The notes below the pieces were generated by a model, which worked only from the letters and a program-made list of their open reading frames with translations, did not search any database and was not told where the DNA came from. The translations under genes and the position numbers were made by a program. This document shows, in pieces, positions 29,368-35,010 of a stretch of DNA of 52,620 nucleotides. Positions within the stretch are counted from its first letter, which is position 1, and the number at the start of each line of letters is the position of its first letter. The DNA lies in contig JAUYJU010000017.1 in the NCBI GenBank assembly GCA_030700155.1, positions 1-52,620 of the forward strand, written 5' to 3'. The DNA comes from Candidatus Nanoarchaeia archaeon. GTDB taxonomy: Archaea; Nanobdellota; Nanobdellia; SCGC-AAA011-G17; JAUYJU01.

Positions 29368-30057
29368 ATGGAGATACATAAAGATATTGAAATTGTAGGT
29401 TTAGGATTAAAATTCAAAGATAATCTGATAATTGGGGATCTGCAGATAGGTTATGAAGAATCCCTTAACAAGCAAGGATTAATGATTCCACGATTTCAAC
29501 TAAAAGATATCATGAAAGAACTAGAAAAAATATTCTCAAAATATAAATTCAAAAGAATTATTCTTAATGGTGATATAAAACACGAATTTGGAAGGATTTC
29601 AGACCAGGAATGGAAAGACACTTTAAAAATAATTGATTATTTACAGCAACATGGAGAAGTTATTTTAATAAAAGGTAATCACGATACTATTTTAGAACCA
29701 ATAGCTAAAAAACGTAATCTTAAAACCATAGAATATTACAAAGAAGGAGATGTAATCATCTTACACGGACATAAAATAATTCCAGATTTATCTAAAATAA
29801 TAATTATTGGGCATGAACATCCAGCAGTTTCTTTTAAAGAACGACCTAGTGAAAAATTCAAATGTTTTCTAAAAGGTAAATACGAAAAAAGTACGCTTAT
29901 AGTAATGCCTTCTCTAAATATGTTAACAGTTGGAACAGATATAACCCAAGCAAATTTCTTAAGCCCTTTCCTTAGTGGAAATTTAAACAACTTTGAGATT
30001 TATGTAGTTGAAGAAAACAAAATATATAACTTTGGAAAATTAAAAAATTTAATTTAA
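29368..30057 (+). CDS. metallophosphoesterase (COG1407-like)
   Basis: NLIIGDLQIGYEESL, ILNGDIKHEFG, LIKGNHD, GHEHP. Confidence 0.9.
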   Translation: MEIHKDIEIVGLGLKFKDNLIIGDLQIGYEESLNKQGLMIPRFQLKDIMKELEKIFSKYKFKRIILNGDIKHEFGRISDQEWKDTLKIIDYLQQHGEVILIKGNHDTILEPIAKKRNLKTIEYYKEGDVIILHGHKIIPDLSKIIIIGHEHPAVSFKERPSEKFKCFLKGKYEKSTLIVMPSLNMLTVGTDITQANFLSPFLSGNLNNFEIYVVEENKIYNFGKLKNLI

Positions 30058-30581
30058 ACTGCCACGCCTAAAATTCTTCCAATAACATAACCTGCAGCTG
30101 CAGCAACAAATCCAATTGTCAGTAATTCAGTTCCAGATCTAAACCAATTTCCATGGGTAAACTTAGCTTTGAAAACTCCAGTTAAAAATAAAGTCAATCC
30201 GCATAAGATTATTGCTCCAAATATTGCCATTTCTATAGGTAAGAAAAAGAAAGGCAACAACGCCATCGCACTTCCTAAAATATTTGAAAGTCCAACCATC
30301 CATGCACTAAACATCGGACTAGTATACTCTTTTGGAACAGCTGTTTTTTTCTCAGATTTATAATAAGCACCAGCAGTTTCTGTACTTGTATAAGCAACAG
30401 CAGCCATACTTATAGCTTCTCCTAAGGCTGCAGAAATTCCACTAATTATAACAATTCTATCACTCCATGTAGCAACAGCAACACCTAAAACTAAAGCTAA
30501 ATTACTAACAATTCCATCTTGGGCACCCAAAATAAAATCTTTAAGCCAAACAGCCCAATCATGACCATGCCTCTTTTTCAT
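30054..30581 (-). CDS. VIT1/CCC1-family membrane transporter-like protein
   Basis: DFILGAQDGIVSNLALVLGVA, ISAALGEAISMAAVAYTSTETA. Confidence 0.88.
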   Translation of the reverse strand: MKKRHGHDWAVWLKDFILGAQDGIVSNLALVLGVAVATWSDRIVIISGISAALGEAISMAAVAYTSTETAGAYYKSEKKTAVPKEYTSPMFSAWMVGLSNILGSAMALLPFFFLPIEMAIFGAIILCGLTLFLTGVFKAKFTHGNWFRSGTELLTIGFVAAAAGYVIGRILGVAV

Positions 30582-30619: not shown

Positions 30620-32635
30620 TTACCAATTATATTTTTTCTTCAATTGATCTTTTTTAACTTGAATTTTAATTGCCATCTCGTTTTCATCTTTCATAGTAAA
30701 AAGTCTGATTAATTCATCCAAATCAGATATAGGAGGTTCTAAATTCCCTTGCACCAATAAATTGCTCACAGCTTTTTCAAACCCATTAACTGCTTCTAAG
30801 GCTTCCTTTTCAACTTCTGTTTCTTGTTTTTTAAGTTCTTCTATCTCTTTTGTTCTATTGTCTCTATCTTCTTGAGATGCATCTTCAGGTAGTTCTCTCA
30901 TTTCAAGATCAAGCCTCTTATCACGCAAATCACTTAAAGTATCAACTAAAATTTTGGTATTTTTTCCTTCATCTAAACTGGATTTATTAAGTAAACTGTT
31001 TAGAGCTTCACTAAGAGGTCTTACATTTCCTGAATTAGAGTAATTTTTAATAGCAGTTCTATAATCTTCAATATTAGAAGCAATCAATCCTGATTCAGTT
31101 ACACTAATGAAACCTTCTTTTTTCTCATGTCTTGCATAAATATCAGCTATCGTTCCAACAGGACCTCTTTGATCTTGCTGAACCTTATTTAATAGTGGCA
31201 AAACATCTCCATTCCAATCACCATCATCTAAATCATGCTCCATTACTAAATCAATTAATCTCAATGTTGATCCAGCTTCTCCAATTTCAGAATCTCCTCT
31301 TAATCTTAAGATTTCATTTACCATTCTTTCAGCCATTGCCACATCATTACCATAATTTATAATTTTACGGGTCAAGGCTCTTGGATCTTGCAGTTTAGAA
31401 GCATCAATAGTAGCTTCAGTAGATTCTGCACTTGCTAAAATTTGTTTTAACTTTGTAATCTTTTCAGAATCATTTTGTTCTAAATAATCAGATATTTCTA
31501 AAGCGTCTAAAATGGGTTGTATTTGTGTTAAAATATCAGTAACATTTTTTGCTCTCAGGTTTGCACGTTTAGTATATAAATTATCAAGGGAATTTTCTAC
31601 AAGTTTCAACTTATTTTTTAAATCAACAAATTTTTCCTTGCCAGGACCTTCGCCAATACTAATCTCCAAAGCCCCTAATTGAGCTAATGAACTCCTTATA
31701 TTTCCAGCCAAAGTTTCAGCTTTCTCATTTTCAAAATCTTTCCCTTGATCAATCAGCGTATCAAGAGATTTTATTTCTCCATTAAACCCTTCTAATTGTT
31801 CACCTGCAAATTTAAGCTGTTTTGAAACAAACTCAAAGCTTTTATTTTCATCTCTAAATTTTTCATATTGCTTTTCAAATAAATCAAAAAATTCATACCA
31901 TGAAACAGGCAACTGATCACGTATACCTCCTAATTCAATATTCACTCCTAAAGCGGCAATACGATCTCCACCCTCAGCTAATCTTTTAACTTCTGCAAAT
32001 TGTTTCCTTGCTTCAGAGAGTTTAATTAGTCCATGCAAGTTTGTATTGACTTCAATCTTCTTTTTATGTATTTCAGGGTAGTCTGCCTCAAGAAGATTTC
32101 TCACAATATCACCTAATCTACTAGCATCAGAGTCTAATTTTTCAAGATCTTCTTTCTTAAATCTTTCAGGGTTTTCTAATGCCACATTAATCTTATTGTA
32201 TAAATTTTGTGCTTCAGCCTCATAATTTTTTGTCTTAACTTGATTTACAAAATAAAGAACTCCTGCAACAGCAGCTGCAGCAACACCTCCAGCAAAAGTC
32301 CAACCAGTAGTATAACCCACCCTTCTAGCCATTGCTCTTCTCAAACTTTCTACATTCTTTCCAAACTCTTGTTCAATTCTATTTTGTTGTATTATTTTCT
32401 TTCTAGAATAGTTTAAATATTGCCTCTGCAAAGCAGGCAATCTATCGTCTTCTTCATCCAAAAATTTAACTGCATCGTAACACGCCTTCATATATTCTTC
32501 AGCACGTTCAAAAAAGATTAATCTTTTAAGAGATCCCCTGTTATAACTTTCTTTCACAGGTATTCTTTCGGCTTTTTTAGCCCAATATTTACCTCTTCTT
32601 ACATTGTCTCTTGAAAATCTATCTAACAAGCTCAT
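30620..32635 (-). CDS. large helical/coiled-coil protein with one TM segment, in kinase operon
   Basis: 671 aa; TM WTFAGGVAAAAVAGVLYFV; start overlaps the kinase stop. Confidence 0.8.
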   Translation of the reverse strand: MSLLDRFSRDNVRRGKYWAKKAERIPVKESYNRGSLKRLIFFERAEEYMKACYDAVKFLDEEDDRLPALQRQYLNYSRKKIIQQNRIEQEFGKNVESLRRAMARRVGYTTGWTFAGGVAAAAVAGVLYFVNQVKTKNYEAEAQNLYNKINVALENPERFKKEDLEKLDSDASRLGDIVRNLLEADYPEIHKKKIEVNTNLHGLIKLSEARKQFAEVKRLAEGGDRIAALGVNIELGGIRDQLPVSWYEFFDLFEKQYEKFRDENKSFEFVSKQLKFAGEQLEGFNGEIKSLDTLIDQGKDFENEKAETLAGNIRSSLAQLGALEISIGEGPGKEKFVDLKNKLKLVENSLDNLYTKRANLRAKNVTDILTQIQPILDALEISDYLEQNDSEKITKLKQILASAESTEATIDASKLQDPRALTRKIINYGNDVAMAERMVNEILRLRGDSEIGEAGSTLRLIDLVMEHDLDDGDWNGDVLPLLNKVQQDQRGPVGTIADIYARHEKKEGFISVTESGLIASNIEDYRTAIKNYSNSGNVRPLSEALNSLLNKSSLDEGKNTKILVDTLSDLRDKRLDLEMRELPEDASQEDRDNRTKEIEELKKQETEVEKEALEAVNGFEKAVSNLLVQGNLEPPISDLDELIRLFTMKDENEMAIKIQVKKDQLKKKYNW

Positions 32636-33759
32636 CTTTTTCTCTCCTCAATACCTATCTCTTTCATAACACTTAATAATCCACTACACAATTCATTAAT
32701 ATTTATTCTAACTTCAGGATCTTTTATTAAACACTCCATTACTAAATCACTTATTCTTGAATCAAGAATTTTACCCTGTTCATCTCTTACAACCTTCCTC
32801 AATATTGGTACTGGTGTTGTGCGGTCACGGATTCTCATTAATAAACTATCAACCTCATCTGGAGATTGACCTGGACCAGTATAAGGAGGATGTCCTGCAA
32901 TCACAGCATACAAAGTAGCACCAAGTCCCCACGGATCTCTTTCAACCATATGATCTATATCTCCATGTGCAGCTTCAGGAGATAAATAATGTAAAGTTCC
33001 ACCAATAAAACCGGCAGCAGTTAATATTCCTCTTTGAGTTTGTGATTTTTTTATTTTTTCTTTTTCTCCAATAATCTTAGCCATTCCAAGGTCAATAAGT
33101 TTTTCTACGCCATTTCCTTTTTCAGAAATAAGTATATTTCCAGGATTGATATCCCTATGTACTATCCCTTTAACATTCTGAAGATAGTCAACACCACCTG
33201 TTATATTGGACATTATAGCCACTGCTTCTTCAAATGACATAGTTTCATCAGGTCTCTCTCTTTGAGGATTAATTAAAGTATAATCTGATAATTTTTTAGC
33301 CTTTTGAACACATTCCATCAAAATATAATGATAAGCTGAAGTTTCACCATGCCCCAAATATCTTAACAAATTAGGGTGATTTACTCCTTCATGTTCTTCT
33401 AAAATTTCGCCAACTTCACCTTCACGCACAAATCTTCCAAGTGTCTGCATCCTTAATGCAACAGTCATAGAGTTCAATTTAGTTTTAGGTAACAACTTAG
33501 CAGCCATGTAGATTTTTCCTGTCCTTTTAACTGGTGGACTATCAGGATGGGATTCTAACAAATAAACGTCTCCAAAACCTCCACTACCTATAGCATCTTT
33601 AATCATACCATAAGATCTAACTTCACTAGTGCCATCTGTTTTATTCCATACAAAACTATCTTCAAAAGTTGTGCCTATAAATGGGAATACCTCTTTTTTC
33701 ATTTCTTCAGGCACTATTTGCTCGTATTCATCATCCGGTTCTTCATATTCTTTTGGCAT
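32632..33759 (-). CDS. eukaryotic-like (Hanks-type) Ser/Thr protein kinase
   Basis: Gly-loop IGSGGFGDVYLL, MAAKLL, catalytic loop IVHRDINPGNILI, DLG, LSPEAAHGD, DPWGLGATLYAVIAGHPPY. Confidence 0.93.
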   Translation of the reverse strand: MPKEYEEPDDEYEQIVPEEMKKEVFPFIGTTFEDSFVWNKTDGTSEVRSYGMIKDAIGSGGFGDVYLLESHPDSPPVKRTGKIYMAAKLLPKTKLNSMTVALRMQTLGRFVREGEVGEILEEHEGVNHPNLLRYLGHGETSAYHYILMECVQKAKKLSDYTLINPQRERPDETMSFEEAVAIMSNITGGVDYLQNVKGIVHRDINPGNILISEKGNGVEKLIDLGMAKIIGEKEKIKKSQTQRGILTAAGFIGGTLHYLSPEAAHGDIDHMVERDPWGLGATLYAVIAGHPPYTGPGQSPDEVDSLLMRIRDRTTPVPILRKVVRDEQGKILDSRISDLVMECLIKDPEVRININELCSGLLSVMKEIGIEERKR

Positions 33760-34912
33760 TTTTTCTAGTTACCTTTATGTAATATTCAAGTTGACGCATA
33801 TAATCTGGATTCACTTCTTTCAACTTTTTCATTGTTCTTCTAAAATTATAAGGAACATTGTTTCTAGTTATCTCTCCAGTTGCATCATCAAAAAATAAAA
33901 GCGGATTTCTAATACCCATGCCGTCTCTTGGGAAAAAAGAATTAACCATCACAATTTTTCTGGATCTGTCTTGGTTGTAATAAGTATAAGAAGAATGCAC
34001 ATGTCCCAAAAATAAAGTATCAAATTCTAAATTAGATGCAAAAACCTCTTCAGGAGTGAAATAAGCACTTTTATCAATAGATTCTTGTTCAGCTGTTTTT
34101 CTAACTAGGTTCATATAATTTAATTGTGCACTACCTAAAACATATTTCTTCTCAAAAGTATGCATTAAGAGGGCTGTTGCATCTTTAAAGGTTCCATTAG
34201 GAAGTTTTTGTTTGTATCTTAAAGTTTTTGTTTCAGGTAAATTTACAATAAATTCTAATATACTTGGCAAAGTTTCAACGCATTTTTTCTGATCTATTAA
34301 CAACTGATATGGATCAAGATTACCTAATGTAGCACGTATAACTGATCTTAATCTTCTTTCTCCCCATCCACTAGCAACTTTCTTAATCTTTCCAGTTAAA
34401 ACATTTTCTATTCTTTCTTTTAAATTATTAAGATAATTAGGGACGATTATCTTATCTTTATTACCTTTTTTTATTTGATCTTTCCATTCAGGAACTAAAA
34501 TTTTTCTTGGATTCAAAACTTGTTTTCCATCAGAATTAAAATCCCAAATATCTTTTCCACAAAGTTGCTCTGCTGCTAATTCTACTCCACGACCAGAACC
34601 GGCTCCAGTAACACCACTTTGTTCTTTTATGCTATAATCTCCTCTTTCTAATCCAGAACCACTCTCAAGCATATTTTCTATTAATTTTTCATGATTTCCT
34701 TTTACACCACCAGTTTCTTTATCTGAGGTTGTAAATTCTTTCTGCCATTCCATAATCCTAAGATAAGAGTCACGCTCATCAGGACCATAACCGCCAACAT
34801 CACCAGTAAAAAGAAGTCCTTCAACTAAATAAAGAAAAGGTTCTGTTGAATCATAACCTTCTATACATGCATGTGTATCGCCTAATATTAAACGTTTCAT
34901 AACTCCCCACAA
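33743..34912 (-). CDS. PPP-like metallophosphatase (putative protein phosphatase)
   Basis: LILGDTHA, LLFTGDVGGYG, GVKGNHEKL, LFLGHVHSSY; overlaps the kinase gene by 17 nt. Confidence 0.85.
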   Translation of the reverse strand: MWGVMKRLILGDTHACIEGYDSTEPFLYLVEGLLFTGDVGGYGPDERDSYLRIMEWQKEFTTSDKETGGVKGNHEKLIENMLESGSGLERGDYSIKEQSGVTGAGSGRGVELAAEQLCGKDIWDFNSDGKQVLNPRKILVPEWKDQIKKGNKDKIIVPNYLNNLKERIENVLTGKIKKVASGWGERRLRSVIRATLGNLDPYQLLIDQKKCVETLPSILEFIVNLPETKTLRYKQKLPNGTFKDATALLMHTFEKKYVLGSAQLNYMNLVRKTAEQESIDKSAYFTPEEVFASNLEFDTLFLGHVHSSYTYYNQDRSRKIVMVNSFFPRDGMGIRNPLLFFDDATGEITRNNVPYNFRRTMKKLKEVNPDYMRQLEYYIKVTRKNAKRI

Positions 34913-35010
34913 AATATACTTAGAGTAAAAGCACTTTAAAAGTGTTTTGGTAAAAAGTAGTAGTAATAGTAGTGCAAAAGTTTTTATACAATCAAATTAC
35001 AAATAAGAAT

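Follow-up and report, generated by a model that had tools for sequence, protein, structure and literature searches.

Introduction

In the bacterial PrpC-PrkC and Stp-Stk operons, the gene of a phosphatase lies directly upstream of that of a Hanks-type kinase. Phosphatases of the PPP family, as we define them here, carry the motifs GDxHG, GDxVDRG with its clamp arginine, GNHE and HGG (PMC8249667, PMC8366450), the motif-2 arginine being part of a two-arginine clamp (PMC8249667). Class III phosphodiesterases carry the signature D-[X]n-GD-[X]n-GNH[E/D]-[X]n-H-[X]n-GHXH, and CPPED1, a human non-PPP enzyme with the same type of signature, dephosphorylates proteins (PMC8366450).

The window, by which we mean the whole stretch of 52,620 nucleotides that was analysed, belongs to an assembly of 788 kb (~0.79 Mb) in 36 contigs, 96% complete, whose genes for NAC and for L10e-like and SRP54-like proteins (the latter two named by eye) are archaeal markers and whose small size suggests a DPANN lineage. 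As in PrpC-PrkC and Stp-Stk, a phosphatase gene here precedes a Hanks kinase gene in a candidate operon, and the nearest solved structures to the kinase in a PDB search were PknB (best) and StkP. Unlike in those systems, the phosphatase is a metallophosphoesterase and not a PP2C/PPM enzyme, the kinase has neither a transmembrane (TM) helix nor PASTA repeats, and a distinct, unrelated helical protein supplies the membrane part.

A locus of three overlapping genes

The ORF list and the sequence place three consecutive genes on the minus strand, those of phosphatase and kinase overlapping by 17 nt and those of kinase and membrane protein by 4 nt, as an ATGA stop/start. The coordinates, lengths and overlaps given in an earlier note on this DNA all agreed with the sequence, and so did the motifs that it quoted, namely GDTHA (residue 11), GDVGGYG (37) and GNHEK (72) in the phosphatase and HRDINPGN (201) in the kinase. 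The features of the locus are as follows.

34903 to 34908, minus strand: GGGGAG in the sequence, Shine-Dalgarno-like, 2 nt before the ATG at 34900
33743 to 34912, minus strand: metallophosphoesterase-superfamily gene, 389 aa if read from TTG 34912, 385 aa if read from ATG 34900
34871 to 34882, minus strand: GDTH, metal-ligand motif I of the phosphatase, residues 11-14
33995 to 34006, minus strand: GHVH, motif V of the phosphatase, residues 303-306
32632 to 33759, minus strand: Hanks-type Ser/Thr kinase gene, 375 aa
33136 to 33159, minus strand: catalytic loop HRDINPGN of the kinase, residues 201-208, with Asn205 at the usual Lys position
30620 to 32635, minus strand: membrane-protein gene, 671 aa
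32246 to 32302, minus strand: TM helix WTFAGGVAAAAVAGVLYFV predicted from hydropathy, residues 112-130, with RRAMARR just before it
30054 to 30581, minus strand: VIT-family membrane protein gene (PF01988, E=4.9e-34), 38 nt 3' of the 671-aa ORF

Codon usage and GC3 of the trio are those of the neighbouring genes, which indicates that the three are real, resident genes; a recent foreign origin was rejected on this ground. Translation of the phosphatase probably begins at ATG 34900 rather than at TTG 34912, since GGGGAG lies just 5' of the former. At the other end, the 38 nt that separate the 671-aa ORF from the VIT-family gene are AT-rich, and this gene may be expressed by read-through from the trio or from a promoter of its own, so that its membership of the unit is uncertain. 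The space between the phosphatase gene and the divergently oriented NAC gene holds an inverted repeat, CACTTT-T-AAAGTG (34932-34944), which may be an operator or a TATA region or may have arisen by chance. A second, standard metallophosphoesterase gene (29368-30057; PF00149, E=3.3e-8) is found on the opposite strand, ~0.6 kb past the end of the trio.

The phosphoesterase

In Pfam, the phosphatase matched only PF00149 (E=5.4e-4), its 20.9 bits falling just below the curated cut-off of 21.5. The ordered signature is complete (D12..GD38..GNHE72-75..H251..GHVH303-306) and was matched by none of 20,000 shuffles, which upholds the view of a phosphoesterase with all of its metal-ligand residues. GNHE and His251 are separated by ~175 residues, a stretch without any match, and an AF2 model from the single sequence (mean pLDDT 35) was too poor for the alpha-beta-beta-alpha fold of metallophosphoesterases to be recognised in it.

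The earlier description of the enzyme as PPP-like had to be abandoned. GNHE is present, but motif 1 reads GDTHA, motif 2 reads GDVGGYG without the arginine, MHTF stands in place of HGG, and there is a GHxH motif. Because the motif-2 DRG arginine and HGG are missing, membership of the PPP family was rejected: the enzyme has GNHE and the superfamily metal-binding plan in common with archaeal PPP phosphatases (PMC8249667), but differs from them in lacking the DRG arginine and HGG and in having GHxH. Judged by its motifs, it is a metallophosphoesterase with a class III phosphodiesterase-type signature. Like the enzymes of that type, CPPED1 included, it has the complete set of D-x-H, GD, GNHE, H and GHxH, whereas its lack of detectable sequence relatives, its long GNHE-to-His spacing and its sub-threshold Pfam score set it apart from them.

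Neither the motifs nor the class implies protein-phosphatase activity, although by analogy such activity is possible, and the role is conceivable because some non-PPP members such as CPPED1 act on proteins. Since the PPP-specific residues are missing, the enzyme may instead target nucleotides or other phosphodiesters. The kinase and the membrane protein would then form a signalling pair, with the metallophosphoesterase making or removing a small-molecule signal as a nucleotide or phosphodiester hydrolase. This alternative draws on the match to the class III phosphodiesterase motif set (PMC8366450) and on the change of motif-2 DRG to GYG, which leaves the PPP two-arginine clamp incomplete (PMC8249667). 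We nevertheless regard it as somewhat unlikely, given that metallophosphoesterases are often promiscuous, some of them being active on proteins (CPPED1), and that the neighbouring kinase gene tips the balance slightly towards a protein target.

The kinase

The identification of a Hanks-type kinase was confirmed by a match to PF00069 (E=1.3e-31) well above the curated cut-off (110.4 versus 31.7 bits) and by intact motifs (GSGGFG, AAK(88), HRDINPGN, DLG, SPE and DPWGLG). The core residues GSGGFG58, K88, D203, N208 and D223 (of DLG) are in place, the assignment of the alpha-C Glu being uncertain, and it is credible from these residues that the kinase is active.

In canonical Ser/Thr kinases, the lysine of HRDxKxxN, which is usual though not universal, makes contact with the gamma-phosphate, and its replacement here by Asn205 raises the alternative that the protein is a pseudokinase scaffold. 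The substitution to which the earlier note had drawn attention is present, but a special meaning of it found no support. In the class to which the host belongs, the lysine was found in 57 of the 78 readable loops of kinases from 74 loci and was absent from the other 21, which have Asn (6), Ser (3), Thr (3), Cys (2), His (2), Arg (2) or other residues (3) instead; within one well-supported clade of receptor kinases, the same position is occupied by Lys, His, Thr or Ser. The change is therefore best seen as an ordinary, tolerated variant. Receptor tyrosine kinases, moreover, have HRDLAARN, and with the remaining active-site residues intact we consider a pseudokinase very improbable.

Relatives of the kinase in the class are only generic, with 26-43% identity over partial stretches; no orthologue was found in 378 class genomes, and in the kinase tree it falls in no supported clade. 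A PASTA receptor kinase of the PrkC/PknB type, which has a TM helix and extracellular PASTA repeats in the same chain, was rejected, as the window kinase has no TM helix and the NCBIfam PASTA kinase model covers its kinase part only (91.5 against a cut-off of 450). A defence-system kinase (MADS, PglW or PD-T4-6) was likewise rejected, since the PADLOC matches arose only through the generic kinase domain, and no relevant PADLOC model matched the phosphatase or the membrane protein. The host genome encodes one further Hanks-like kinase and a 201-aa kinase that, by its size and its HGDLTTSN loop, looks like Bud32.

The membrane protein

The third gene had been described as encoding a TM-bearing membrane protein, and this description holds: a single TM helix is predicted at residues 112-130, and the rest is mostly helical in a single-sequence AF2 model, which is helical throughout at low confidence. 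The N-terminal ~110 residues are basic (net +10) and the C-terminal ~540 are acidic (net -25). This charge split, together with RRAMARR before the TM helix, predicts by the positive-inside rule a probable N-in, C-out topology, which would leave most of the protein external and only ~110 residues within reach of the kinase. No relatives were found in Pfam, NCBIfam or the PDB, and a PDB fold search with the AF2 model yielded nothing but generic bundles of helices, the best at E 0.13.

Conservation across genomes

The phosphatase and the membrane protein had been thought lineage-specific, as was borne out: neither has a homologue in any other of the 378 genomes of the class. Direct searches of 103 genomes of the order and 371 of the phylum returned no phosphatase homologue, and none of either protein came from what was covered of the genome contigs (searched with the protein query and the pattern GDVGGYGPD), the viral contigs, the phages and the plasmids. 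Two candidates were discarded, a chance match of GDVGGYGPD on a viral contig that has no phosphoesterase-like ORF there (L077) and a weak match in the phylum that is an ordinary metallophosphoesterase (L118). Nor was a homologue of either protein found beside the kinases at the 74 class kinase loci with their flanks.

Since two of its three members lack a detectable homologue, the trio order was seen only in the host genome, the single one in its family, and the expected conservation of gene order failed. With the trio present in no second genome, comparative support for a unit is absent, and for such a singleton comparative genomics cannot tell whether the three genes work together. The trio could, then, be three unrelated genes that lie together incidentally in a streamlined genome and have no function in common. 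The genome is compact, short gene overlaps are numerous within the window, and with eight PF00149 matches in 0.79 Mb a chance neighbour of this kind is not remote. Two successive overlaps on the same strand, one of them of 17 nt, and the position of a writer directly beside a candidate eraser argue against such packing, and we think it quite unlikely.

A metallophosphoesterase gene directly adjoins a kinase gene at one of the 74 class kinase loci, in a count based on a motif scan that could miss divergent phosphoesterases; the adjacency is rare and might be at about the level of chance. At that locus (L045:5977-9074, in genome G137 of the host's order), the gene of a 197-aa metallophosphoesterase (PF00149, E=1.6e-16) has three kinase genes in tandem close behind it. 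The locus resembles the window in having a metallophosphoesterase gene directly before kinase genes and is an independent instance of the pairing, but its enzyme is a standard one that differs from the window enzyme, its kinases have HRDxK loops, and it has no helical membrane partner.

Receptor-like kinases of the class

The kinase tree contains a clade of 12 receptor-like kinases (support 100/99). At all nine loci with the flank on the contig (L051, L055, L059, L065, L076, L088, L097, L109 and L117), the kinase gene lies tail-to-tail with that of a protein of ~300 aa whose N terminus carries a MazE/AbrB domain; the two overlap or touch at eight loci and are 374 bp apart at one. PF04014 was found in all five partners tested, one of which also gave a weak, sub-threshold PhoU match. 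The same convergent neighbour occurs beside kinases outside the clade (L066, L091, L102 and L104), and no such partner protein is encoded in the window. Although these loci were picked for holding kinases and not at random, the recurrence of the AbrB/PhoU-like pairing across families points more strongly to a conserved archaeal kinase module than does anything seen at the window operon. Elsewhere, four tandem kinase genes (L116:6692-14117, in G284) with the loops HRDLNLEN, HRDLNLRN and HRDLTLRN, all without the usual Lys, may represent a lineage-specific expansion.

The receptor-like kinases of the host's order (L051, L055, L059, L065 and L076) have kinase, TM helix and external domain in one chain. 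The window trio is similar in that a cytosolic kinase would be linked to one TM helix and an external region, but in those kinases all parts lie in one chain with an AbrB/PhoU-like partner, and the window kinase falls outside their clade. Given such one-chain receptors in the order, a kinase with a separate membrane partner would be the split form.

Discussion

The earlier reading of the locus as a signalling module stands in part: an overlapping unit with a credible kinase, a phosphoesterase and a membrane protein was found, while the PPP identity and the conserved gene order were not, and the suggested part of the membrane protein as substrate or scaffold is conjecture. We infer a functional link within the trio from the coupling of its genes. 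The reading that we prefer, and to which we give an even chance, is that the trio is one operon with coupled translation, whose products make up a phospho-signalling unit specific to the lineage and operate in the manner of a receptor kinase split into parts. The two overlaps, the kinase motifs, the complete phosphoesterase signature and the native codon usage all point to such a unit, which would entail a shared mRNA, an active kinase, a protein substrate for the phosphoesterase, the topology predicted above and contacts among the three proteins. The 671-aa protein would be anchored by its single TM helix, its basic head of 110 aa facing the cytosol and its long helical part lying outside. 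The soluble kinase would phosphorylate cytosolic targets, plausibly this head and the kinase itself, and the metallophosphoesterase would undo the phosphorylation or otherwise set its level. A more specific version is in our view unlikely: a self-contained archaeal phospho-switch at the membrane, where the Hanks kinase has as its cognate protein phosphatase a non-PPP metallophosphoesterase from a family not seen before, and the membrane-anchored helical protein is both their shared substrate and the sensor.

For now, the window unit is supported by the order of its genes and by motifs, both from a single genome. Ser/Thr phospho-signalling in archaea with tiny genomes is almost unstudied, and with just three DPANN sequences recovered in one survey of archaeal PPP phosphatases (PMC8249667), few erasers have been identified for their kinases. 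The encoding of a metallophosphoesterase with a kinase, in the window and independently in G137, suggests where such erasers may be sought.
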